Shown here in pieces: positions 16,462 to 64,000 of a stretch of DNA of 64,000 nt (the first letter of the stretch is position 1; every line of letters starts with the position of its first letter). The stretch is from Tetraselmis striata (taxonomy: Eukaryota > Chlorophyta > Chlorodendrophyceae > Chlorodendrales > Chlorodendraceae). The notes below the pieces were generated by a model. It worked only from the letters and a program-made list of their open reading frames with translations. It was not told the DNA's origin and did no database searches. A program made the translations under genes and the position numbers. The stretch spans positions 1-64,000 of the forward strand of contig VCJN01001228.1 of assembly GCA_006384855.1 (NCBI GenBank). The letters are read 5' to 3'.

Positions 16462-17222
16462 TTAGGCGCTTGCGGTGACCTGCGCCATCGCGTTCTGCAG
16501 GCTGACGGCGGTGCTCTGTGGCAGGAAGCTAGAGGACTCGACATCGTCTAGGAAGAGCTCATCCGGCGCGCGGAACGCGCCATGCGCGGCGATGATGGCG
16601 CTGCTGACCACCAGCGCGTATATTAGCTCGCTACCGACGCTGGTCAGGAAAAAGACGACCAGCACAGACACGCCGACGCATGCCAGCAGCTGCTCTCTCG
16701 CCGACAGCGTGCGCCCGCTAACCGTAAGCGGCTCCTTGCGCACAATGTACAGGTAAAACCACATTGTGGCCAGCGCCGCGAGCCACACCAGGGACCCGGG
16801 GTGGCTGATAAAGGTGAGGGCGGTCACGAGGAAGGATAGCGTGAGGTAGTTGAACTTGAAATAAGCCACATTCTTGCGCAGCCGGCCCAGTGCCTCGCTC
16901 ACGCTCTCCGGCTTGGACAGTGCCTCGCGGTCCACCATCTCACTCCAGGGCTTCATCTGCGGGGCCACGCAAGCCGGGGTAAGATGCGATCGTCCCTCGC
17001 TGCAGGGCACGGTGGGCGGGCGGGCGATTCCCTTGCGCGTACCTGCGAAACGACGTGCGCCCCAAGGTCCTTAGCGCGCCCTGCCAGGGCCGACAGCTTG
17101 CCGCGCGCGCCTGACGCCGCTTCAACCTCGCCACCATCCGCTGCAGCGGGCGTTGAGATGGGGATCCCAATCACTGGGGCCGCCGCGTCCATCTTGCCCT
17201 CCACGCTGCTGGTCTCAGCCAT
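16462..17222 (-). CDS. PRA1 (prenylated Rab acceptor) family membrane protein, 2 exons
   Basis: PRA1 proteins sit in Golgi/ER membranes and act in vesicle traffic with prenylated Rab GTPases. Exon 1 is 17222-17043 (60 codons, ends CAG|GTACGC). Exon 2 is 16956-16462, after the acceptor CCCCGCAG. Both joins are phase 0, giving 224 residues. Exon 1 encodes an Ala/Gly-rich, probably disordered N-terminus. Exon 2 opens with the family signature (KPWSEMVDREALSKPESV), continues with RLRKNVAYFKFNYLTL, then two pairs of hydrophobic helices separated by IVRKEPLTVSGRTLS, and ends with HGAFRAPDELFLDD. That order and the length are typical of plant and algal PRA1. The start is the first ATG of the exon. 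A TGTAA signal follows the stop. Confidence 0.93.
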
Positions 17223-18072: not shown

Positions 18073-19582
18073 TCATGAAGGAGGCACTGGGAAGGCCACC
18101 GCTGCGGAGTCCTGTTGGACTTGGAAGTGGCGGAGGGGGGCGATGTGTCCAAAGAAGAACCACGCGCCAGGGGAAGGAAGAACGTTGGGGTCGATGTAGT
18201 CCAGAACGACGTAGAAGTTAGTGGCCCAACCGCCTTGGTAGCGAATGTGGGACAATGGCACTCCGATGGCGTTTGCCGCAGAAGCTGCGCCCTTGCGAAG
18301 ACTGTGGGAAGTCCAGGAAGTGCCAGCAAGGGGGGCAGCGTTGACTAGACTGATGGCTGCAGACAGCCAGTCTGACATTGTAGCCGCAGTCCAAGGTTTT
18401 GACTGCTCGGCCGCAGTGACAGCCCAGAAGTTTGATGTAGCCAAGCCAACAGTAACCAGGGGGACAGATTGGACGTTGTCGATGAAGTGGTGCAAGAGAC
18501 GTGCCACTCGAGGGTGCTCGGACACCGGAAGGAGAAGTACACGCAGGTCGTCGGGTCCCCGTCGGCCAGCGCGACCCTTCTCGCGGTACACTTGCAGGGT
18601 GATGTTGTAGTCGTCGACATGCACGTCTCGCACTCGACAGGAGACGCCAGTAAGGCCTATGGCAAAGAACATAAAGTTGACAACCGAGGCCAGGAGGGCC
18701 CGGAAGTTGTGGTGGTACTCTGGGAAGGGAGCAGACACAATCAGCTCGGCCTTTGTGACGAAGCGGTAAGCCACATCCGCAGGCAGAGGGACACGCAAAG
18801 GGGCAGCGTCCAGTCGGCGCTAACGCAGCATCGATCAGCCCACGCCTTGCTGAAGTTAAGTGCAGGCTGTCCTTGGCGATTGGGTCGAGGTTGTGCAGCT
18901 CGAAGAACGTGTTGATCGCTGACAGGTAAGGTTGCAGTGACTTAGCGGCGATGTGCCCTCGCTCGCCGATCCGGGCAACGTACCGAACGACAGTCGCAGT
19001 AGTCGCCTCCAGCGGGCTGATGTTCTCGGAGTCGTGGCAGAACTCCGCGAACTGAGACAGCCGGCCGGCATAGCTCTTGAGTGTCTGAGCGCTGAGGGAG
19101 CTGGAGAGTAGGTCGAGCGTCCGCTGCCCCAGCTCGTCTGAGCCGAACGCGTCCTGCAGCCGAGCTCGCAATGAAGCAGCCCAGGGAGCGACAGCTTCGG
19201 GCTCGTCAATTACGTAAGTGCGTCGTTTTACTGACAGAGTTCCACCGGTGCGACTACTGTTCGCAAAGTACTCGGCAGCAGCAGTTAGGTTCCCGGCGGT
19301 TGGCCGGTAGTTGCTGGACGGGTTCGCAGCAGCATCGGTACGGGTTTGCGGGGCTAGGTTCAGGTAAGAGGGCCGCCCCGCGCGCCCTTCGCGCTCGTAG
19401 CGCCTGTCTCGCGCGTAACGTAACCGCGTGAAACTTTGTCGTTGCGAACCAGTTGTAACACGTAGTGTAACAACCGACGGACGCAGTGGTGGAATGGTAC
19501 GGGAGGCGGTTAGTTGAGCCGCCATGTGCAGGTGTGCGGATGGTTGAGCCGCACTCGGCTGTAGCTGTGAGAAGCGCCGCAC
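18073..19582 (-). pseudogene. Tyrosine recombinase, one frame break (copy 1)
   Basis: About 500 residues over two frames that switch near 18815-18830. The first frame (19582 to about 18830) holds an SAM-like N-terminal core (AQTLKSYAGRLSQFAEFCHD; LQPYLSAINTFFELHNLD). The second (18798-18073) holds the catalytic domain. Visible residues are an Arg in SCRVRDVHVDD, a basic YREKGRAGRRG loop, H-x-x-R in TSHSLRKGAAS (His about 18306), a Trp in YQGGW, and the nucleophile Tyr in VVLDYID (about 18198). The set R-K-HxxR-W-Y is complete. In copy 3 this junction reads in one frame, so the break is local decay. The N-terminal start is uncertain: MAAQ, 19 codons downstream, is better conserved among copies. 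Confidence 0.85.
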
Positions 19583-19739
19583 CGAGGAGGGTCTAAAGGA
19601 AGTCTGTAAAGTGGGGGGGGTCAGGCCCTAACACGGGGCGCTCATCTCCCCGTTGAGCTGCAAGGGTGCGTCTTGCGGCGGTCACCGAAAGGTGGCCTCG
19701 CAAAGCTCCAGCAGCTCCGACGAAAGGCGCCCCACACCG

Positions 19740-20594
19740 TCACTCGTGCTCACCTTCGCGGCCACGCCCACGTCCACCGCCACGTCCTCGTCCACGCCCG
19801 CGACCGGCAGCTGCAGCCACCACTCGAGCAGTAGCGGTTGCTTTCGCGCTGCTGGCAACGGTCGCCTCGAAGACACGGCGCTCGCAGTCCCGCATGAGGT
19901 CCCCAAAGATCGCGGAACCCAGATGCTCCGAAGCAGGCTGAAAATGTTGGGCTCGTAGCACATCCAGAACACCTTGGTCACCGTGCACACGCTTGATCTC
20001 GTTTAGCCTCCGCAGGAAGGCCAAACGAAACCGAAACGCCTTGTCGATGGCCTCGGCGTGGTTCCGAGGTCTCGCGAGGTATGGGGTGAAGTCCTGGTTG
20101 GTGGCAAGGACGTAGGGCAGTAGCTCGTCGAGAGCCACGAAAAGTGCGGCCATGTGGGCCCCGAAACACGACATCCACAAATACTCCTCCTGGGCCGGCA
20201 GACGCCGGTCATCCTGCTTGAGGTACTCGTTCGTTAGGTCGGTGCTCAAGGGAAAGAGTCCAGGCACTCGGCTGACCGGTCGAACGGCCTCATAACCAGA
20301 CTCTGCTCTCTGCAGTAATTCTGGCACCGCGAGGTAGTCATCCTCGGCACTCACGGATTTTGCTCCGACACGGCCGCTATGGGCTATCTCTATCAAGTCG
20401 GGGCGCTCTGCGGCTCCCCCGCTGCATGTCGGCTGTCCCGCGATGCGCTGCCCAGAGCGAGAGCCATGTGCCCCTTCTCCATCAACAACACGCTCACGAG
20501 CCGTCAATTGAGCTACAGCCGTAGCCAATGCACGCACATCTGCTTGCAACGACTTTAGCGTCGGCTCAGCGACGGGTTCTTCTCCATCTGACAT
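19740..20594 (-). CDS. Gag-like protein of the YR element (copy 1)
   Basis: An uninterrupted 284-residue frame. The ATG at 20594 (MSDGEEPVAEPT) is chosen because it is conserved in the other two copies. Around residues 15-35 is a predicted short coiled coil (LKSLQADVRALATAVAQL). The centre carries conserved blocks PVSRVPGLFPLSTDL and HAEAIDKAFRFRLAFLRRL. The C-terminus is an Arg-Gly-rich tail (GRGRGRGRGG...) that could bind nucleic acid. I do not recognise a named Pfam family. Its position before a recombinase, the absence of enzyme motifs and the basic tail argue for a nucleocapsid-type role by inference. A related core motif is found in the lone frame at 58258-59100. Confidence 0.75.
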   Translation of the reverse strand: MSDGEEPVAEPTLKSLQADVRALATAVAQLTARERVVDGEGAHGSRSGQRIAGQPTCSGGAAERPDLIEIAHSGRVGAKSVSAEDDYLAVPELLQRAESGYEAVRPVSRVPGLFPLSTDLTNEYLKQDDRRLPAQEEYLWMSCFGAHMAALFVALDELLPYVLATNQDFTPYLARPRNHAEAIDKAFRFRLAFLRRLNEIKRVHGDQGVLDVLRAQHFQPASEHLGSAIFGDLMRDCERRVFEATVASSAKATATARVVAAAAGRGRGRGRGGGRGRGREGEHE

Positions 20595-20709
20595 AGTAAC
20601 GCACGGACGTACGGACGAGAATATCACACTCGGATGGCGAGCCGGGTGTGGTCTTGAACAACCTGGGGTGACCTTGCTCGCAACTGGCTACGAGACAGTT
20701 TTTACATCG

Positions 20710-28284: not shown

Positions 28285-28753
28285 TGTCGGAGGGAGATTG
28301 TCGAAGTGATGGCTGAGTGGCACTGTCACTGGGGGCGGGGAGAGTCGGCGAGAGTCGGCGTGCACGTGTCGAATCACGTCGATTGTCAGCAAGCAAGATG
28401 CAAACTGGGAAGGCAAAGGGCTGTGTGAGCCGTGGGCGATGGGCGAAAGGTAGTCGCTGTCGCCTTAGTGATGGATGAGTGGCACTTGCACTGGAGAGTG
28501 TAGCAGGAAAGTCGGGACTTTCTGGGAAGACTAGCTGACTGAATTTACAGGAGCCGAGGCTGACAATTTATACCAGCCGGCTATGTGTCGATTAGGGCAG
28601 ACACCGCTCCATAAAAGAAGGTAATCTGGCAAAGAAGTCTAAGTGCCGTACTCTGGTAGCATCTGGGTGTCGTACATCTTAGGCACGTGTACGGCAGCCA
28701 ACACTTCACTGGAAAATGCGGATTCAGGGTACCGGGGTACGCTGGGTCCAACA
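28285..28753 (-). repeat. 3' LTR of the copia element (469 bp)
   Basis: On the element strand it begins TGTTGGACCCAGCG and ends CTCCGACA. A TATA-like GGTATAAAT lies at about 28573-28565. The start is repeated at the right end of the element (TGTTGGACGCAGGG), with 3 differences in the first 42 bases. It is bounded by the target-site duplication on the left and by a purine-rich tract on the right. Confidence 0.88.
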
Positions 28754-28770
28754 CCCCTCCGTCCTCATCC
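28754..28770 (-). other. Polypurine tract
   Basis: GGATGAGGACGGAGGGG on the element strand, directly before the LTR start TGTTGG. This is the expected place and composition for the plus-strand primer of an LTR retrotransposon. Confidence 0.75.
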
Positions 28771-28789: not shown

Positions 28790-29290
28790 TGGCGGAAGAG
28801 GCGCAACGGAAGGCTCCCCGGATGACCCGACCAGAAAAGCGTGGAAATGAAGAAAGGTAGTCAGTGGCAGCGCCTTAGTGAAGAAGTCGGCGAGCTGGTC
28901 TTTGGTAGGCGTGTAGTGCATGTCGATGATGCCGTCCTGGCAGAGTTGGGCCGCTTACTGAAACTTGAGGTCAATGTGGCGTTGCGTGCCATATTCATAC
29001 CATGTTTCACCTGAACGATGCACGCATGGTTGTCCTCGCATACCCGCACTGGGTCAGTGGTGGGGTGGCTGAGCTGGCGCAGAAGAATGCGAATAAATGC
29101 TAGGCACTTGCGCTTGCAAGTCATGTAGAGCGCCACGAACTCCGCCTCGGCAGTAGACATGGCCACGCTCTTCTGAACTTGCGCGCGGTATAGGGGACTG
29201 GGGTGCCGTGCACCAGGGCAAGATAGCCGGTAGTGGAGCGGCGTTTGGGCATGAAGGTCGCCCAGTCAGCGTCCACAAAGAAGATGAAGT
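28790..29290 (-). pseudogene. Copia RNase H domain
   Basis: Follows the reverse transcriptase: FFVDADWATFMPKRRSTTGY (first Asp), STAEAEFVALYMTCK (Glu), PVRVCEDNHACIVQVKHGMN (Asp) and, near the end, HYTPTKDQLADFFTKALPL, the usual C-terminal copia motif. The blocks lie in different frames, with a frame change near 29150 and a stop before the last block, so it is broken. Confidence 0.88.
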
Positions 29291-29439: not shown

Positions 29440-30334
29440 TCCGGACGCGATGCCACAGCCAGCCAGATAACGCTGCCAACGAGATTGGGATAGGGGAAGA
29501 GTTTGGTGTCGAGAGGCGCGCCTGTAGGGTCATGAAAGACGGTATCCGGCGTGCAAGGCAGGCGGCAAGGCTTGCACTCCGTCATGTTGAAGGTAGTTCC
29601 AATCTCGTTTATGTATTTCTCCTGATGGAGGTGGATCACGCCTCTCGGCTTGCGGTCAATGGCCATTCCAAGAAGCCAGGTGCATAGGCCGTCAGTGGTC
29701 GCATCAAACGTAGTGAAGAAAGAAGTTTGAAAACGCCCCTGGATGTTGGACGATGGGGAGGTAGCCAACATGCTTTCATCAACGTAGACGCATAGGATGG
29801 CCAACAGGTATCCATCGGCGGCAAGCAGCGTCCATACGCCGGGATCGCACTCGGAGCTGATGAAGCCGAAGTCACGGAGAAAGGAAGACAAGCATGCCTT
29901 GGGTGCCTGCGGCAGGCCGTAGAGTGCCTTAACGAGTTTCCAAGCCTGGTCCATGCGGCTGTAGCCGGGGAGGGGGGGGGGTAGACGTAGACATCTTCAT
30001 CGAGGTTAGCGTTGAGGAAGGCACATGTGACGTCAACCTGGTATAGCTCCCGGTCGAGTTGAACTGCGAGAGCAATAGTGGTGCGCAAGGCGATGAAGCT
30101 CACGACTGGGGCATAGGTCTTGGTGTCATCATAGTTCTCGCCGGCGGTAAGTTGATCGCCGCGGAAGACCACTCTGGCCTTGCGCTTGACGAGGTTGCCA
30201 TCCTTGTCGTGTTTCTCCGCGAAGGCCCACGCCGTCTGTATGATGATCGCTGATGGGTTGTCGCGTCGAAGCTCAGGGACGCTGATCCCGACAAAAGTCT
30301 CCATTTTGGTGATAGAGTCGATCTCACGGTCCAT
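29440..30334 (-). pseudogene. Copia reverse transcriptase, active-site box YVDE
   Basis: The first frame (30334 to about 29970) holds IIIQTAWAFAEKHDKDGNLV, KRKARVVFRGDQL and motif A (LYQVDVTCAFLNANLDEDVY). After a frame change in a C/G run (about 29968-29980) the second frame continues with WKLVKALYGLPQAPKA and motif C, read as LCVYVDESMLA (29801-29769). Copia enzymes normally have YVDD; here the second Asp codon is GAA (Glu). Later blocks LLGMAIDR, HLHQEKYINEI and YLKGTPSHGLIF are typical of the family. Copy broken by the frame change. Confidence 0.9.
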
Positions 30335-30482
30335 GGAATGTTACCAATCATCGGGTGATTGCTGGAGATGGCCTCCGAGTAGTTGCGTGGCGCCTTGGAA
30401 ACGCGGACAGTGGGTGATTGTAGGGCGAGGGCGGCCATCTGTGCTGAGTAGGGGCGCACAACCGCCGCGATGGCGGATGCCA

Positions 30483-31673
30483 TTAGCGTGGGGTAGTAGT
30501 CGCTGAGGTCGATATAAGGGGAAGGCAGTTGCGCCGATCCGTTGAAGTGAGGAGCTGGTAGTGCTGTGGCGACCCTTTCCTGATGACGCGGAAAATAATG
30601 CTCGGCGTGATGTGGAGGTGGGGCCCCCTCCTGTGCCGAGGCAAGCGCCGCTGATGTGGCATGGGTGGCGGTGCTTGGGGCCCCTCCTGCTGGTCCGAGG
30701 GTAGCGGCTCATCCAGCAGGTGATCATCGTCGAGGAACTGGAAGACATGCATATAGAAAGCCGGTGTGTTGGAGAAGGGCCGTGTTACCTCGACAAAGAT
30801 GACATCGCGTGTCACTGTTTCGCGCCTGGTAGCTGGGTTGTAGATGCGGTAGCCAACGGAGTCCTCATGATGGCCAACGTAGATACCCGGCCAAGATTTA
30901 GGTGTCATTTTGCCATGGCTGCCCTCATAGTCACAGAGATGTTGACCCATGCCACTCATCCGAAGACATGTAGGTCGGTGAGGTCGGGCTTGCGGCATGT
31001 CATCACGGTGTAGGGTATGGCGTTGACGGACGAGCTCCACTGGCGGTTGCAGAGATAGACGGCGTGAAGATACGCCCAATCCCAAAAGGTGCGGTCGAGG
31101 CCGGCGTGGAGGAGCATGGCTTGGGCACACTCACCGATGGTGCGGAAAGAGCGCTCCGCCATGCATGTATGATGATGAGAGTGAGAGGCGGTAAACTCAA
31201 GCCCGATGTTGAGGTCGGCGCATGCTTGACGAAACGGAGAGTCGGTATAAACCGCGCTGCGATCGGCACGTATGCGTTGGATGGCGTGACGACCCATGCC
31301 GAGCACTGCCGCATGAAGTTGATGGATGGCTCGGACGGCCTCGTCCTTGGTGCGCATATGACCCTCACGCCATTGTAGGAATCCACTGCGCCGAAGACAT
31401 TGCATGCTGCGCCCCCGTTACCGACGGGCAAGGTCCCTTCCACTCGTCGATGACCACGAGCACGTATGGCGCTGTCGCGCGTAAGGAGGGCTGCCGGTTG
31501 ACCGACTGCTTGTGGGACTTAGCCCGGATGCATGCTGGGCTGATGGCCTCTGGTGTTGGGCCGAGTTTTGGGATGCCGATGGCATGCTGCTGGGTGAGCA
31601 GTGCCATGTGGCGTGCGCAACCAAGTCGAAGATGCCACAGGGAGTAGAAAGCCGTCGGAGATGGCAGCGCCAT
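30483..31673 (-). pseudogene. Copia gag-pre-integrase and integrase
   Basis: 31673-31560 has the HHCC-like zinc-binding start (LWHLRLGCARHMALL ... ACIRAKSHKQS), with Ser in place of the expected first Cys. The catalytic core begins YVLVVIDEWKGP (first Asp), changes frame near 31400, continues RIRADRSAVYTD (second Asp) and MAERSFRTIGECAQAML (Glu), and ends with WPGIYVGHHEDSVGYRIYNP and RRETVTRDVIFVE in yet another frame. All DDE positions are visible, but at least two frame shifts break the ORF. Confidence 0.88.
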
Positions 31674-31782
31674 GACCCCATGCGAGGGATCGCGGATGGG
31701 AAGGAGCTGGATGCCGTATAGGCATGTGGTGCCGGGGTAGGGCTAAAGGTGGATGACTGCGCCATCCGGGGTGATCACGGTG

Positions 31783-32100
31783 TTAAAGAGGCGGCTGAAT
31801 TAGAAGGAGAGACCCTGCTTGCTGAGTTGATGGGTGCTGAGGAGACGGCTGATGTTGGTGAGACCGACATTGGAGGTGATGTTGGAAGTATGGTAACAAT
31901 CTCGCGCCACAATGGTATGTGGCATGCCGGTGATGTCCAGTGTTGGTGCTAGTGTGGTGCCGATGCCGATTGCTGATTGCCCGAAACCGCCAAGCAGAAC
32001 TTGCTCCGCTGCAGGAATATCCATGTAGTAAATGTAGTCGGTGCGGTGGGTGATGACGTGAGAGGATGCGCCTGAGTCGATGAGCACCCATGCCCCCCGT
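31783..32100 (-). pseudogene. Copia aspartic protease
   Basis: WVLIDSGASSHVITHRTDY (catalytic DSG at about 32078-32070), followed by GGFGQSAIGIGTTL and a typical spacer ending SKQGLSF. It lies in a different frame from the methyltransferase region upstream: a run of six G at about 32095 differs by one base from what would keep the frame. An in-frame TAA at about 31800 precedes FSRLFNTVITPDGAVIHL. Confidence 0.88.
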
Positions 32101-32164
32101 CGCTGTTGATGGAGTTGCCGTTCGATATGTGGCAGACAACGATGACTGGTGGGGCAGTGGCGAC

Positions 32165-33125
32165 GCCCGAGACGACAGCCTTGATGTAGTTGCGCATGAC
32201 GTTGAGATCGATAACTCCGCCGAGAAGGTTGCGTAGTGCCGCCTCGGAAAGGTGAGATGTGGGCAGCTCATCCAAAGTGAAGCCCATGGCGCGAGCGCGT
32301 AGAGCTGCAGGGGATTCGCGCCATTTGCCGTAGTCAGTCCATGACCAGGGGCCATCATGTTCGTAGCCCATGCCAACGCCCGGCTGACCATGGGTATGTA
32401 TACGAAAGGCGTATGCGCCGGGGCGGGCGACGAACTTCGGAAAATAGTCGGTTGTCACCACTGGAGTAAAGTGGGGGAACTCGGAGAGGCAGTGGCCCCA
32501 CGCGCAGGGGCCGGGGTCGGTGAGCTCGATGGCGTTGATGTTGTTGATGTAGTTCTGGATGTCTGGTTGTGGAGCGATATTGGTCCACATTAGGGTGTCG
32601 CGGTGAGCTGATGAGCCGAAGGCGGTCGCGCGCATGACGTTGCCGGCTCCAAGTGAGGAGAGTATTTCAGGGAAGTCAAGCGCGCCTGGAACATTCTCCA
32701 CAATATAGCGCACTGGTGTGGGCTGTGTAGTCAAGTACATAGAAACGGATGAGACCGATGACGGAAGCGAAGGCCCGAGAGCGATGGTCCTGCCAGCCAA
32801 GGCGTGAGCCCGCGCGTGACCATGTTTGACACGGTGGACCTGACACGATGAGGGTGACTGGGCGCACGTGCTCCAGCTCCGTGATGGTGATGTCGTTGAC
32901 GTCCATAGGGGTCCTGGCATGACAGTCATGAAATGTTGATGGAGGCAGACGGTCCGGGTACTTGTTGCTGATGACATGTAGGCGATGTGTCCACATAGTG
33001 CGAGCCTCGGTTGATGGGTCGGAGCCAATGATCTTGTGGATGGTGAAGCCGTATTCTACCAGAGCCTTCACCCCATATGTTGATGGTCCATGGCACAGCG
33101 AAAAAAGATGGTCATCGATGACCCG
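32165..33125 (-). pseudogene. DNMT3-like C5-cytosine DNA methyltransferase domain inside copia polyprotein
   Basis: About 320 residues with the ordered motifs of C5-cytosine methyltransferases. Motif I (HLFSLCHGPSTYGVKALVEY, 33110-33051) binds AdoMet; then GSDPSTEARTMW and VNDITITEL. Motif IV is IVSGPPCQTWSRAG with the catalytic Cys (about 32831). Motif VI is YIVENVPGA with Glu (32698-32690). Motif VIII is SSAHRDTLMWTN, and motifs IX-X are LRARAMGFTLDEL ... LRNLLGGVIDLNVMRNYI (32299-32177). The AHRxxxxWxN form of motif VIII and the short target region resemble DNMT3/DRM more than DNMT1. Motifs I-IV share one frame with the gag zinc knuckle. One frame break near 32745 separates them from VI-X. 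The family assignment is firm; the subfamily is by eye. Confidence 0.87.
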
Positions 33126-33266
33126 AGCGAGAGGTTGGCATCTGGAGGATCGGGGCAGCGGTGAGGAGCGGTAGCGCTGATGGCGGTCATAGTGAGGGTC
33201 GTTCATGGTGCTGGTTGGCGTGGTGTCACCTAAGACACGCATGCCGTTGGCATGGCACCTGGCCAC

Positions 33267-33930
33267 ACACAGCTGTTGGGTATGGCCTGGACGGTCACAC
33301 CTTCTGCAGACGACGTTGGGCCTGGTGGCGTGCTGCGGGTCCCCGGGGTTGTAGGAATTGAGGTTTGGTGGGCACGCGAGGGCGCGCTGCTGACGCTGAC
33401 GCTTGCGCGCCTCCATGTTTTGTCCGGCGTTGATGATGGTTGCCAGCTTCTCGTTGACAGTGGCCGCCGAGATGGCGATGTCGACGATATGTTCGTAGTC
33501 TGGGCGAAGTCATGGGATGAGGTTGTTGGTGGTCACGTACTCGAAGGTCCATTGGCCATGTGCCTTGTTCAATAGATCGAGGTTCTGGTAGCGCCAAACA
33601 TACACCTTGACTGGCTCATTCGGGACCTGGCCTGCTGTGATCTCCTGGCTCCTCCAAGCGCGCTTGCGCTGCTCCATGGCCGGGCCCTGAAGCTCAATAA
33701 GACGGGCCTTCCAGGCTGCATATCCACACTTCATGGAGTCCATGATGATGCGGTTGACGATGGCCAGTCCCATGCATGGGATAATTCGTTGTTGCGTGCG
33801 TGACGCATGGCTGCTAGGAGAATAATTTGTTCCTGACGGGTGCCTTTGCCCTTGGTGGTGTCCAAGTAGCCGGCGCTGCCGAGAGAGATCTTGATGGCTT
33901 GAGCGTTGTCCCGCCAGCACTTCACTGAAA
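33267..33930 (-). pseudogene. Copia gag with CCHC zinc knuckle
   Basis: Gag starts abruptly within VLAGQ/KCWRDNAQAIKISLGS, directly joined to the LTR remnant, so its N-terminus is missing. It continues LDTTKGKGTRQEQIILLA, AWKARLIELQGPAMEQRK and VKVYVWRYQNLDLLNKAHG over several frames. The zinc knuckle VCRRCDRPGHTQQLC (C-x2-C-x4-H-x4-C) is at 33308-33267. The same frame runs on without a stop into the methyltransferase, which supports a fused polyprotein. Confidence 0.85.
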
Positions 33931-33939
33931 AATGCGGAT

Positions 33940-33991
33940 TTCACAAAGAGAAAATGCGGATTTAGGGTACCGGGGTACCCTGCGTCCAACA
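33940..33991 (-). repeat. Remnant of the 5' LTR
   Basis: Only the first part of the LTR remains (TGTTGGACGCAGGGTACC...ATTTTC), then an 18-20 base partial duplication containing AAATCCGCATTT, then AGTGAAGTGCTGGC, where gag begins. The intact LTR has AGTGAAGTGTTGGC at the equivalent place, so the internal deletion joined LTR and gag at about 14 bases of near-identity. Confidence 0.8.
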
Positions 33992-50520: not shown

Positions 50521-53500
50521 TCGCAGCCTTGGGCCGCTCCTCGTGTTTGTTGTCTCTCACTTCGCGGCATCTCCGACTTCCGCGCCCAGTTCATTCCAGA
50601 CCTCTAGGCATCCTCTGGGTGTTTGGCCTCTATGTGCAACTTCGACCCGTTGCTCGGGTAGGCATCTAGCTAGGGCGGCGCCGTGTTGCCGTCCATTCTC
50701 ATTGGTGAGGTATGTCCCGCAGAGGAAGTGCGGGCGGACTGAGGCAGCCGAGGCGTCCCGCCCTGCCCCGCGCTGCGTACATGGGTCTTCTCCACCAATA
50801 GAGGTGCCGTCTCAAGCCTGTGGTAGTGGTGGTTGTGATTGGGGGAGTATGGTAGATGACGCGAGGGCATCGGAGGTTGCGATTGGCGCTCCGTTGGGGC
50901 GCATGGGGGTTTTGTGTGGGCAAGTGGGGCTTAGAGGCCTTCCCCGTCTGCGTCCATGTAGTCTTCTTCTTCGACCAAGTCGTCGAGCTAGGCGCATGGG
51001 TCTGGTTCTTCGTCGGTCATCCGCTCGTCATCACTGGGGAGAGCGGGTGAGGGAGATGGATAGAGGGAGTGGAGCGGGCCACCCGTGCTGAGGGAGGCAA
51101 TTCTTTTTGCGATGCGGATGCGTCTGCGGGGGAAGCTGCGGTTCATTCGGTCGATCGCTTCTTGGACGAGAAGGGTGCGGAGGACATCCTCGGGGGCGGT
51201 GTCTCTGGGGGTGAGGTCTTCCGAGAACGAGGCGGGGTTTGGCCCGCGGGGAGCTTCCGGAGTGGGGGGAGGGCAAGACCGGAGTTGACCGGGCGGGGGG
51301 GAGGGTGTGTTTGTGCGCCACGCGCCTCTCCCGGGGACCGGGGCCGTGGCTTTAGGCGGGTTATGGGCCGCCCCCGGTGGTCATGCCTCTAGCGATAAAC
51401 GGGCGGGTTGATTGGGTGCGGATGCGAGTGGAGAGGGCCACGTCCGGTGCCTCTTCGCGAGGTGGGCTGTGTTGTGTCTCTGACTCGGAGGCGATGGCTT
51501 GGGTGGCGGGATGCAGCCGCGGCCTTGCCCATGGCCTCTCCCCAGACCGGAGGTGCGGCCGGAGCCGTCGATCGGGCCGCAGCCTCTGCCGCGACCGGTG
51601 TGAGTCGTACGGGCCGGGGGGAGGCGTCCGGGATGTGAGCGTCTGGGGTCCACAAACCTTTGTTTCTCGGTGTGGCGGGTAGATTCCACGGTGGTCCCGA
51701 CCGTAAGCTGGAACATCATCGCAACGCTTTCTGGAACTCGGTGCGTTCGGCCTCGGTGTGTGTGGACTTGGTGTATGCCTCAAGGGCGCCGCCTCCGTAC
51801 GCGCCCAAAGAGACATCAAGGAAGCGGAGGTCGACGTTGCTGCATGGGGTGGCGTTGAACAACCACGCTGGACGTCAGGAGAGTTGCCCGCGGCTGTAGT
51901 GGGAGGGGTCTTAGGGGGAGGAGGACACACCCCATAGCGGCCAGGGGCCTCAAGGTCATCCTCTATGCGGAGGCGAACGTGCGTCGAGTGGACCGCAAAG
52001 ATGACGGCAGAAGGGACATGGCAAAGCGCGAAGCCCCGGGTTCATTGGAGATGGGACGGCGATGTATTGCGGTGGCCCCGGACCGGCACTTGTGCATGTC
52101 AAGGATAGCTGGGTATAGGTCTGGGTCAACACCGGCCTCCCGGAGTTCCTCAGGCAGGCGGGCCATGGTGTGTGGGCTCCCCTCTGGGAGCGCCGCGTGC
52201 TCGCGGCGGAGTGCATCGACCACCGCCTCAGCCCGCTTTGTAGGGTCGGGCAGGGGTTTGGTGGAGGCGGGGGGGGGGGGTTCTAAAGGAGAAGTGTGGC
52301 AGCCGACAACGTAGGTGAAGAAGTCGTCGCTGACTGGATTGGGCGGTGGTTGGCCATAGTGCGAGGTGTCTGGCAATGAAGTTTAACCAAGTTGCAGATA
52401 GAGCTTGGACATAAAAGCTGTTGCCGGCGGGAGGCAGATGACCGCCCCTTGGGCAGCCATAACCAGCAGGTCGGCAGCTTTGGTAGTGGCTAGCTCTAGC
52501 CGGGCCGTGTGGGCGGGGAGGCGAGGTTTGTGAATGTGAACAACTTCGAGGAGCTCGTATATGGCAGGGTATGGGAGGCAATTCTCCACCGTCGGGTTGA
52601 TCGGTGTGCCGTCTGGGATGGTGTTGGCGGGGGAGTCATGCTCGTCCCAAGCCTGGGCCGTGTATGTCTCTACCATTTTGGAGAGGTTTTTCGGGCGGCG
52701 GGTGGTGCCCCTGGCATTGGCGGCCCTTTTTATGTCGTGCATAGGAGTGAGGATGCTGGTCAGCCACGCATGAAGCTCTGGGCCGGACTAGTACTCGAAC
52801 ATGGGGCTGGATATGAATATTGTGCGTTGTGCACGGAGGTCTAGAGATAGCTGGGGCATCGATGCGGGGGAGCACCGGAACTCCGGCATTGGTGTGTAGT
52901 TTGTTGGCGGGGTCGCGCGGCAGATCCCCCCCCCCCCCCTGCGATAGGGAACGGCTGACCGCCGCGTACTGTGCATGGGCGGCTTGTGGTGCGAGGCATT
53001 GCTGCACAGCCACCAGCCGGCGATGTCGCGCGTCACCCGAGGCAGCAGCGGTGAGAGTCGCCTCCCCTTGTGCTGGGGTCCGTCTGCAGGCGGATGGCCT
53101 CGATAGCGTCCACCTTGGGTAGGGAGAGTTTATTTACGGTGCCCGTCGTGACGTCCCGTTTGTCTTTGTGGCTTGGCATCGGGAGGCGTTTCGTATATAC
53201 ATGACGGTCAGTGGCTGTGGCCGTGATGTGCGTCCATGTCTTTTGACCGGAAGATGGTGAGGTTGGCGCCGCGGCGCTCAATCTCGGTTATGATGTCAAT
53301 GCCGGGGTTAGAGTAGTCGTTGAGGACTAGGGCGATGATGTATTTGGGCGGTGCGTTCATCGCCACGCCCGTGAGGGTGGTGTGAGGAGGTTCCTCCGGG
53401 GGGAGTTTTGGGATTTGGTATAGGCAGACGGTGCGGCGGCCGCCCCCTTGTGGGGAGGGGCTCGCGACGCCATGAGGGCCCATGAGGGTTTGGAATAAGG

Positions 53501-54499
53501 GTCTGCTGTCCCTTGGGTGGGTTCGCGATGCGAGAGTTGTGCCGGATGGGCGGGTGCTTTGCCTTTAGCGGCCGCGCGGAGCGCGTCCACATTAGCCGCG
53601 ACGATGCCTTGTGGGATAGAGGGTGGCGAGCGCGCGGGCGCGCGGGCGGATGGGGGGGGGGGGGGGGGAGGGGGGGGGGGCGGCGGCGGCGAGGGGCTGG
53701 GGAGCAGTGGTGCCGGCAGCAACGGAAATGCCCGCGGCCATGGAGTGGGCGCGAGTAGTTATTAGGTGTTGTGGTGCAACTGGCTGGGTGGCCCGAGGAC
53801 CCTTTGGGGTCTGCCTTTCGGGGCGCTGGCGGTGCGGCGTCGCCGGATATGGCCGCTTCCGGGTGGGCGGTGGGGGATGTGGCGGTCGCCGTCGCATCGT
53901 CGTCATCGCCAGCGCCGCGACCGACCCGGCGTCACAAGGTGTGGCCTCAGCCAACGCTTTTTGGGCGGCTCTGGCGGTTGAGCGAGGCGTGTTTGTTTTG
54001 ACTTAAAGTTTGCCGAAGCTTGTGGGCTCTGCGACAGGTGGTGCGGCGACGGCGGGTGGGGACCCTTTTGACTATGCCTGCGCCCTTATGAACCGGCGGG
54101 GGGTGATGGGGAACGGATCAACCGGTACGGGACGGCCTGCCGAAACTTGCGGGACTGCCATGGCCCCGTCGCCCGGGAGTTCGTTCGCTTCGACCGCCAT
54201 GACTTCGTCAAAGGGCATGCGGTCTGGGCTGGTATGACCTGCGGCCACAAGAGCGGTGGTGTGGGTTGTGGGGTGTGAGGGGGCGGGCGGGACGGCCGCG
54301 CCGCCCGTGGGGTGATTTCGCGCCGGATCTACGATACCGACATCCGCGTCGCGCGGTGCATGTCCGCCCTGCAACACCTCGTTCCCCTCCTCCATGTCCT
54401 CTGCGGAGGGCACAGATTTGGCCGTGTTTGCATGCTTGCGGCGGGCGGACTGGCTGCGGGTGGCTCGTGGTGAAGGCATGGCAGAAGCAGGCGACCGGT
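50521..54499 (-). other. Decayed 4-kb region with protein-like minus-strand frames, unidentified
   Basis: Minus-strand frames succeed each other with little overlap: 54479-54072 (starts MPSPRATRSQSARRKHANTA), a Pro-rich stretch broken by the G17 run at 53652-53668, then AKGKAPAHPAQLSHREPTQG, 53483-53208 (YIIALVLNDYSNPGIDIITE), about 53215-53035, 52742-52383 (KMVETYTAQAWDEHDSPANT) and 52376-51963 (EAVVDALRREHAALPEGSPH). They could be one ORF of over 800 residues with several frame shifts, perhaps the first ORF of a retroelement. No enzyme motif or zinc knuckle was seen and I do not recognise the family. Confidence 0.35.
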
Positions 54500-54539
54500 G
54501 GCGGCGGGACTACGGATCGACCGGCCACAATGTATTTTA

Positions 54540-62084: not shown

Positions 62085-64000
62085 ATGAGCAGTGGCAGAT
62101 TGGCGATTCGGCTGGCCGCCTCCGCCGCGAGCCCGGCGATATCTCGCCGGGTGCTTAAGGGCGCCCGCTCGAGGCGCGCGCTCCCGCAGGCAGCCTGCTC
62201 GCCGTCGACTCTCCGGCTCTCGCCTCGAGCTGCGGCGCCCCGTCCCGGCCGCCAGCAGGGCCTTCTGCTGACCAAGTCAGGCGAGCTCGGGGCACACGGT
62301 GCGCCTTAATCCCCGACAACCCGCACCTGCCTCTCGTCTCTGGACTCCCCGCCCTACAGCGTTGGAGGCTTGTACGGATGGCGCTCGGAACCCGCCCGGC
62401 CGGGCGAGTTGGCGGGGGACAAGCAGCGGCTGCGCAGGCTATTCCCAGCCCGAGAGGCGCCTGCCACGGCTCTCGCAAAGCATGTTTGTTCCGGCCAGGA
62501 AGTTGTATCTCGTAGGCACACGCAAGTCAACTGAGTGCAGGAAGCGGCTATGCCACGAGGCATAATACTAATCAAGGGATGGACTCACAGTAATAATGTG
62601 CTGCACGATAATATCATCAGGATAGTCGCTAATTGAGTTTTTCTTTTGGATCCAGCTGTTATTTTTCGTAATTAGCGTTCCATATCTGCCATTTGTACCG
62701 CCCAGTTATTGCTACAGTATTATCACAGTGATTCTCGCTCTGTTAACAGCTGTCTGTACTGCTGCACTGCCCATTGACTTCCAAAGCTGTGAATGGGCGG
62801 GCACACCGGTTAACTGCACCTGCTCTTAGTCCCACTCTGCACAAGCACACAGCGTAGACATCTGAGAGTGCTTGGACCAGCGGCAGCGGAGGCGTGTCAC
62901 CTAGCCCTCCTTGCACATGGCGCACTGACATGCTCTGATTCGGCACTGAGCCACTCCACCGCTCCGGCCGACAGGCGTGTCGCGGTCTGTGACAATGCGC
63001 GCTGCTGGCGTGGGTGCAGCCGCAGCAAGTATGCCGGCCACAGAGATGGCCGCGCCCGTGGCGGCGGTGGCGGGGTTGCGCCCGGGGCAGACGCTGGTGG
63101 ACGGTGCGTTTGAGGTGGTGTCGGTGGAGGAGGTGGGCGAGTACAACGTGGCGGCGGTGGAGCTGGTGCACCGCAAGACGGGGGCGCGCTGGATGCACGT
63201 CGGCGCAGACGACGAGAACAACGTGTTCAACGTCGCGTTCCGCACCACGCCCACTGACGACACCGGGGTGGCGCACATTCTGGAGCACACCGCGCTGTGC
63301 GGCTCCGAGAAGTTCCCCATCCGGGACCCCTTCTTCAACATGCTTCGCCGCAGCCTGTCCACCTTCATGAACGCCATGACCGCCGCGGACTTCACCTGCT
63401 ACCCCTTCTCCACCATGAACGCCGCCGACTACTTCAATTTGCTCAGCGTGTACCTGGACGCGGCCTTCTTCCCCAAGCTCGCCCGTGAGGACTTTCTGCA
63501 GGTATGCCTGATGTTTTTTGGGGCCAGCCCATCTTGCCCCTGCGGCCCCCTTCGCTCCGAAACCACTACCTTTTTCTAATTGCTGTAACAGCCAATTGGT
63601 TTCGCGGGTCACGAAAATATTGAGACCATTTTTACCAGGAAATCTGAGATTCCGTGCACCGCAACAACAGCTCGATTTCTATGGAATTGTAGTTATGCTC
63701 CATCGCGCGGGCACAGGGGGATAATAGATACGAAATGTAGTAAAGCCTGGACACGGTAAAGGATGAAGATTCACACTTCACAAGCACCAGGCAAGGATTA
63801 ATGCGACTGCCTAAGGGATGTGCTGACTCTCCTAGCTGCTGATGCCCTCCTCCCGCAGGAGGGCCACCGCCTTGAGTTCAAGGACCAGGATGACCCGACC
63901 TCGGAGCTGATGATTAAGGGCGTGGTCTTCAACGAAATGAAGGGCGCTATGGGCTCGCAGTCGGCGCGCTTCGGCCGCGCGCTGGGCGCCGCGCTGTTCC
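62085..64000 (+). CDS. Presequence protease (PreP/PITRM1, M16C metallopeptidase), 5' part
   Basis: PreP degrades cleaved targeting peptides inside mitochondria (and plastids in plants) in a closed zinc-peptidase chamber. Exon 1, 62085-62298, encodes an Arg/Ala/Ser-rich transit peptide (SSGRLAIRLAASAASPAISR) and ends CACG|GTGCGC. Exon 2, 63020-63501, follows GTGGGTGCAG and ends CTGCAG|GTATGC. Exon 3 starts at 63859 (CTCCCGCAG|GAG) and runs off the window. Phases agree. The inverted zinc motif is HILEH (63274-63288), followed by LCGSEKFPIRDPFF, STFMNAMTAADFTCYPFST and, in exon 3, the distal zinc-ligand Glu in FNEMKG (63934). LLSVYLDAAFFP is typical of the PITRM1/CYM1 branch. Exon 1 is less certain: a start at the ATG at 62995 without intron 1 is possible. 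Confidence 0.88.

Follow-up and report, generated by a model that had tools for sequence, protein, structure and literature searches.

A C5-cytosine methyltransferase domain between the zinc knuckle and the protease of a Ty1/copia family from the chlorophyte Tetraselmis striata

Introduction

C5-methyltransferases have been described inside several kinds of retrotransposon. The accessible text of de Mendoza et al. (2018; PMC5890265) reports DNMTs in LINE and DIRS elements of Symbiodinium and in a Gypsy element of Klebsormidium, and gives the Copia elements of Symbiodinium as having no DNMT domain. In yeast, CG methylation is shown for the enzymes of SymbioDIRS, and no activity was seen for those of KnitGypsy and SymbioLINE, a negative result that the authors deem inconclusive. 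Published captures in dinoflagellates and charophytes had been mentioned in the first-pass annotation of the present locus. A 2025 survey (PMC12344493) refers, in its accessible text, to DNMT3s 'embedded within ... LTR Copia and DIRS' and cites the 2018 paper; 'Copia' is possibly a slip, because the LTR element of the cited paper is a Gypsy. Because the survey drew on EukProt, the sequences described below may have been available to its authors; Tetraselmis is absent from its main text. DNMT5a and DNMT6 are recorded in Tetraselmis transcriptomes (accessible text of PMC9998398), some DIRS1-type elements bear a catalytically inactive adenine methylase (accessible text of PMC3537659), and the accessible text of PMC11453091 holds nothing further on Copia methyltransferases. 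The open-licence literature yielded no description of a Copia methyltransferase from Tetraselmis.

The element considered here lies in a 64-kb stretch of Tetraselmis striata DNA (GCA_006384855.1, contig VCJN01001228.1, positions 1-64,000), hereafter the window. Its methyltransferase sits between the CCHC zinc knuckle and the protease of a Ty1/copia polyprotein, and as far as the literature was searched such a Copia capture in a chlorophyte is new. KnitGypsy-Dnmt3 of Klebsormidium nitens, as described in the accessible text of PMC5890265, is likewise a green-lineage algal LTR retrotransposon with a C5-methyltransferase in its polyprotein, but it is a Gypsy element with the domain in Pol and a charophyte host. 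SymbioDIRS-Dnmt3, from the same source, also joins methyltransferase and reverse transcriptase in one ORF and exists in many copies; it differs in being a dinoflagellate DIRS element with a tyrosine recombinase and an enzyme active in yeast, whereas the Tetraselmis enzyme is known from sequence. SymbioLINE-Dnmt shares the many copies and a methyltransferase upstream of the reverse transcriptase, but is a LINE that encodes an orphan enzyme class in a separate ORF. The survey has in common with our case that Copia is named as a carrier. The DIRS1-type adenine methylase offers a parallel for the second Tetraselmis subfamily described below, in that a retroelement has kept a methylase after catalysis was lost, but it belongs to an unrelated family and to a tyrosine-recombinase element. 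The comparison with KnitGypsy, SymbioDIRS and SymbioLINE covers the retroelement machinery, and there the Tetraselmis family stands apart. Its machinery is not of the Gypsy, DIRS or LINE kind; the reverse transcriptase is of the RVT_2 type and is preceded by an integrase, which is the copia order (seen in P0037, a predicted T. striata protein). The capture differs from the published LINE, DIRS and Gypsy cases, and on this point the first-pass reading is supported.

Architecture of the element

The element is broken and occupies the minus strand from 33991 down to a 3′ LTR beginning at 28753; all element coordinates below refer to that strand. Its parts follow in the order Gag, CCHC knuckle, C5-methyltransferase, DSGAS protease, integrase, SH3-like domain, RVT_2 reverse transcriptase and RNase H. 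A pair of LTRs is suggested by a TGTTGG repeat at both ends and by a purine run, likely the polypurine tract (28754..28764), 5′ of the 3′ LTR; no target-site duplication was noticed on cursory inspection. The truncated 5′ LTR remnant (33914..33991) directly abuts a truncated gag and agrees with the start of the 3′ LTR at 39/42 and 26/28 bases; for the 3′ LTR we give the initial bases (28697..28753), its far end and the LTR length being undefined.

The Gag and knuckle region (33174..33913) is delimited by open reading frames and by tblastn matches to P0037 (77-92% identity), and the knuckle itself, CRRCDRPGHTQQLC, lies at 33267..33308 in the frame 33509-32676. The methyltransferase domain (32135..33125), identified by PF00145 and by family relatives, is followed by the aspartic protease LIDSGASSH (32058..32084), which matches P0037 and lies in a frame (32267-31802) with a Pol_BBD score below cut-off (E 0.0022). 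The pre-integrase and integrase (30908..31742) also score below cut-off (gag_pre-integrs E 0.18, rve E 0.0062). In the window these three calls therefore depend on the match to P0037, residues 1175-1323 of which align with the integrase region at 87% in tblastn. An SH3-like domain lies 3′ of the integrase (30657..30914; SH3_retrovirus E 4.1e-12), and a copia reverse transcriptase split over two frames (29517..30355; RVT_2 E 1e-18 and 9.8e-16) precedes the RNase H region with its STAEAEFVAL motif (28954..29202), located by tblastn of P0037 and a second relative, P0051. The Ty1/copia order protease-integrase-RVT_2 occurs in P0037 and in the window too, where the integrase is the sub-cut-off match just given.

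The family member in the window is a dead copy. The methyltransferase is frameshifted between motifs IV and VI (~32736-32740), the frame changes again between motif X and the protease (~32095), and Gag is interrupted by a stop ending at 33510. Gag moreover lacks its start, beginning at residue 77 of P0037, and the 5′ LTR is mostly absent.

The methyltransferase domain

The frame 33509-32676 runs uninterrupted from Gag through the knuckle to beyond motif IV. In this unaltered, natural frame the domain matches PF00145 (DNA_methylase) with an E value of 4.3e-8 (33.4 bits, cut-off 22), and reading through one frameshift gives E 1.3e-9 (38.4 bits) over motifs IV to VI. The first-pass annotation had placed a C5-methyltransferase between the CCHC knuckle and the DSGAS protease, with knuckle and motif IV in one open frame and the domain hence part of Gag-Pol; both points hold, and the profile comparison that it proposed comes out positive with either version of the sequence. 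The PF00145 match spans only positions 44-116 of the 324 in the profile and begins after the motif I region. The second methyltransferase frame by itself has neither a Pfam nor a PDB match.

Motif IV, GPPCQTWS, contains the catalytic cysteine (32817..32840) and is followed by motif VI, YIVENVPG (32684..32707), by a motif VIII region (32576..32614) in which SSAHRDTLMWTNI aligns with SAAHRARYFWGNL of DNMT3A, by a motif IX region (32399..32428) and by a motif X region, NLLGGVIDLNVMRNYI (32183..32230), assigned through hhalign to DNMT3A. The usual motif I of C5-methyltransferases, the AdoMet site, is F-x-G-x-G. The corresponding region here reads LFSLCHGPS (33081..33107), and the aligned copies that hold it have LFSPCHGPS or something close to it. 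Of the ordered motif series originally claimed, the IV, VI and VIII-X regions are in place and motif I is degenerate.

The order through motifs VIII and X is colinear with known enzymes, since hhalign aligns 200 columns to DNMT3A and 217 columns to an enzyme from a phage. Of 20 reference C5-methyltransferases, 19 give the family profile a higher hhalign score than any of 60 shuffles does, so the similarity exceeds chance. We regard membership in the C5-cytosine methyltransferases as firm.

Nearest enzyme class

The label 'DNMT3-like', given at first pass, fares less evenly: its C5-methyltransferase part stands, and its DNMT3 part is plausible but unsettled. Instead of a eukaryotic DNMT3, the ancestor might have been a C5-methyltransferase of phage or bacterial type, perhaps delivered by a virus; we consider this origin possible but less likely than not. 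Four of 18 phage enzymes outscore DNMT3A in hhalign, but the other 14 score below it, even in a phage set that is favoured by having been chosen through the best phage matches. VIA-align has M.HhaI tied with DNMT3. Searching the PDB by sequence with the first frame returns HaeIII as the best match (E 7.6e-4), and the A1 profile finds no convincing PDB match, its best (E 0.028) being an unrelated protein.

Structural comparison points in the DNMT3 direction, with matches taken cautiously on account of the models. AlphaFold reaches pLDDT 38 and pTM 0.24 from the family alignment alone (24 rows), and pLDDT 45 and pTM 0.46 with 15 phage and 8 family rows. For this weak model (pLDDT 45), all 25 Foldseek matches in the PDB at E 0.001 or better are DNMT3A, 3B or 3L entries, which argues against the phage or bacterial derivation, as does the similarity of the motif VIII and X regions to DNMT3A. 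In a viral structure library, a cytosine methyltransferase from a phage is the one match that reaches E 0.001. The N half of the domain matches no phage record at 1e-5; at an E limit of 10, the P0037 methyltransferase matches 259 phage records, the best at E 1e-3. No relative turns up with the family profile in scans of IMG/VR contigs and of GTDB genomes, two short peptide patterns having been used for each.

Relatives in the family

Three protein searches of EukProt return 31, 29 and 15 matches, together 50 distinct proteins; the first two cover lengths of ~180-580 residues and the third ~800-2560. All 50 come from T. striata, in agreement with the proposed chlorophyte copia lineage, and the protein searches give no relative from any other source. 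In tblastn the window matches P0037 and P0051 at 55-92% identity, as expected of a host that is Tetraselmis or close to it.

The most complete relative, P0037, is an unbroken protein of 1948 residues from a cluster of 31 members, with the same domain order as the window copy: PF00145 at 659-734 (37.1 bits), gag_pre-integrs at 1058, rve at 1136 (just under the Pfam cut-off), SH3 at 1294 and RVT_2 at 1550-1782. It is a gene model that may contain introns, and its end past the RNase H motif differs from that of the relatives. Knuckle and motif IV occur within one protein in 8/50 relatives, and 4/50 combine them with the protease; the knuckle-methyltransferase-protease order is that of P0037, P0038, P0039 and P0044.

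These proteins bear on one alternative, namely that a host gene had landed by accident in a single copy. The window holds just one copy of the element (the 31 relatives from the first protein search, used as queries, reveal no second one in its 64 kb), as such an accident would have it, but the same order recurs in the 31-member P0037 cluster and in P0038, P0039 and P0044. A single-copy accident is ruled out for the family by that cluster, and we judge this reading exceedingly improbable. Recurrence of the domain within a copia family is thereby confirmed. The first-pass annotation had also named copies lacking the domain as a sign of chance insertion. None is seen, a piece of methyltransferase being present in 50/50 relatives, including 21/21 with Gag, but all queries held methyltransferase sequence and the figure therefore leaves room for copies without it.

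Nine proteins were compared with P0037 region by region, gene-model gaps reducing the number of columns. P0051 is 81% identical in the methyltransferase (156/193), 53% in the linker (77/146) and 88% in the reverse transcriptase (203/230); the values for P0041 are 89% (255/288), 79% (127/160) and 82% (95/116). The better conservation of the methyltransferase relative to the linker is a hint of constraint.

Intact and decayed subfamilies

Motif patterns allow 34 of the 50 proteins to be scored for motif IV or motif VI; because the patterns miss some variants, the subfamily counts are lower bounds. At least 13 of the 34 readable proteins, standing for 43 members and including the largest cluster, keep both PCQ and ENV. 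In at least 13 others of the 34, standing for 35 members, ENV is replaced by QN- or a similar sequence; PLQ, with leucine for the catalytic cysteine, is present in 5 of the 13. P0040, P0042 and P0043, among others, form a multi-member subfamily (5, 6 and 10 members) with decayed methyltransferase motifs. In 12/50 proteins, all of the second subfamily, the domain ends after motif VIII and continues into the SH3 region (DPGPFSG to RIYNP), a joint that may represent a deletion or a predicted intron. Gene models of the P0040/P0042/P0043 type continue in this way to the SH3 region and have neither protease nor integrase; the subfamily is possibly a non-autonomous derivative.

The decay lends weight to a reading in which the domain has ceased to be an enzyme and is retained because it helps the Gag precursor to bind nucleic acid or to assemble, catalysis being irrelevant. 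The aligned copies have a degenerate motif I, the replacement of ENV and the leucine for cysteine recur as counted above, and the inactive adenine methylase of some DIRS1-type elements (accessible text of PMC3537659) provides a precedent. Motif I and the decayed subfamily make this inactive, structural role a serious rival, but we consider it unlikely on balance, at perhaps one chance in a few, since PCQ and ENV are kept in the largest cluster and recur across divergent copies.

Proposed role

The capture is real, it recurs in the family, and one form of it looks intact. Our working model is that a Tetraselmis Ty1/copia lineage captured a C5-methyltransferase, fixed it between knuckle and protease in Gag-Pol and uses it to methylate its own cDNA; taken as a whole, we see the chances for and against this model as evenly balanced. 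The enzyme, being placed upstream of the protease, would be produced with each Gag-Pol chain and would enter the virus-like particle together with the template RNA. After proteolysis, released or still tethered, it would methylate cytosines of the new cDNA prior to integration, and the methylated copy would then resemble host DNA or be preset for chromatin of a kind tolerable to the element. The self-methylation step is one that we infer. The degenerate motif I and the loss of ENV in a subfamily of 35 members weigh against it. Nor does the window copy show the CpG depletion that would be its footprint: the observed/expected ratio of CpG is 0.934 for the element against 0.935 for the remainder of the window, and TpG/CpA is slightly higher in the element (1.272 vs 1.174).

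The enzyme could also act chiefly on RNA, either the element's genomic RNA or the tRNA primer, rather than on DNA. The domain adjoins the nucleocapsid knuckle, and RNA methylation is raised as a possibility for SymbioLINE in the accessible text of PMC5890265. Against this, the domain has no particular DNMT2 likeness (PDB matches to DNMT2 reach just E 0.35-0.41), and we regard an RNA target as improbable.

Returning to cDNA methylation, an extended form of the model would have an independent, DNMT3-like capture on the Gag side that puts the enzyme next to the template in all particles, cDNA methylated before integration, and a derived subfamily whose catalytically dead domain is still spreading and serves the active form as decoy or partner; this combination is speculative, and we think it doubtful. 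The Tetraselmis family would extend methyltransferase capture by retrotransposons to another superfamily, to chlorophytes, and to a position flanked by nucleocapsid and protease that is new for such an enzyme. Capture repeated in unrelated elements argues strongly that the enzyme aids retrotransposition. With many gene models of the family in T. striata, both intact and decayed, the function of the domain is testable.

Other features of the window

Several further features lie outside the element. A PRA1 family protein (16465-17070, minus strand; PF03208 E 3.3e-39) is a host gene of eukaryotic kind. On the same strand, a 469-aa open frame (18221-19627) contains a tyrosine-recombinase N-terminal SAM-like domain (PF02899 E 1.8e-7), and the 315-aa frame ahead of it (19743-20687) has no Pfam match; together the frames of 18221-20687 are perhaps a tyrosine-recombinase mobile element. 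A weak M16 peptidase match is found on the plus strand at 62950-63576 (PF00675 E 1.6e-5, 25.3 bits, cut-off 22.3). Finally, 53087-54506 on the minus strand matches the end of protein P0021 from T. striata at 59-85% identity; in P0021 this end is fused to a methyltransferase fragment, and the region looks like another repeated sequence, outside the copia element.
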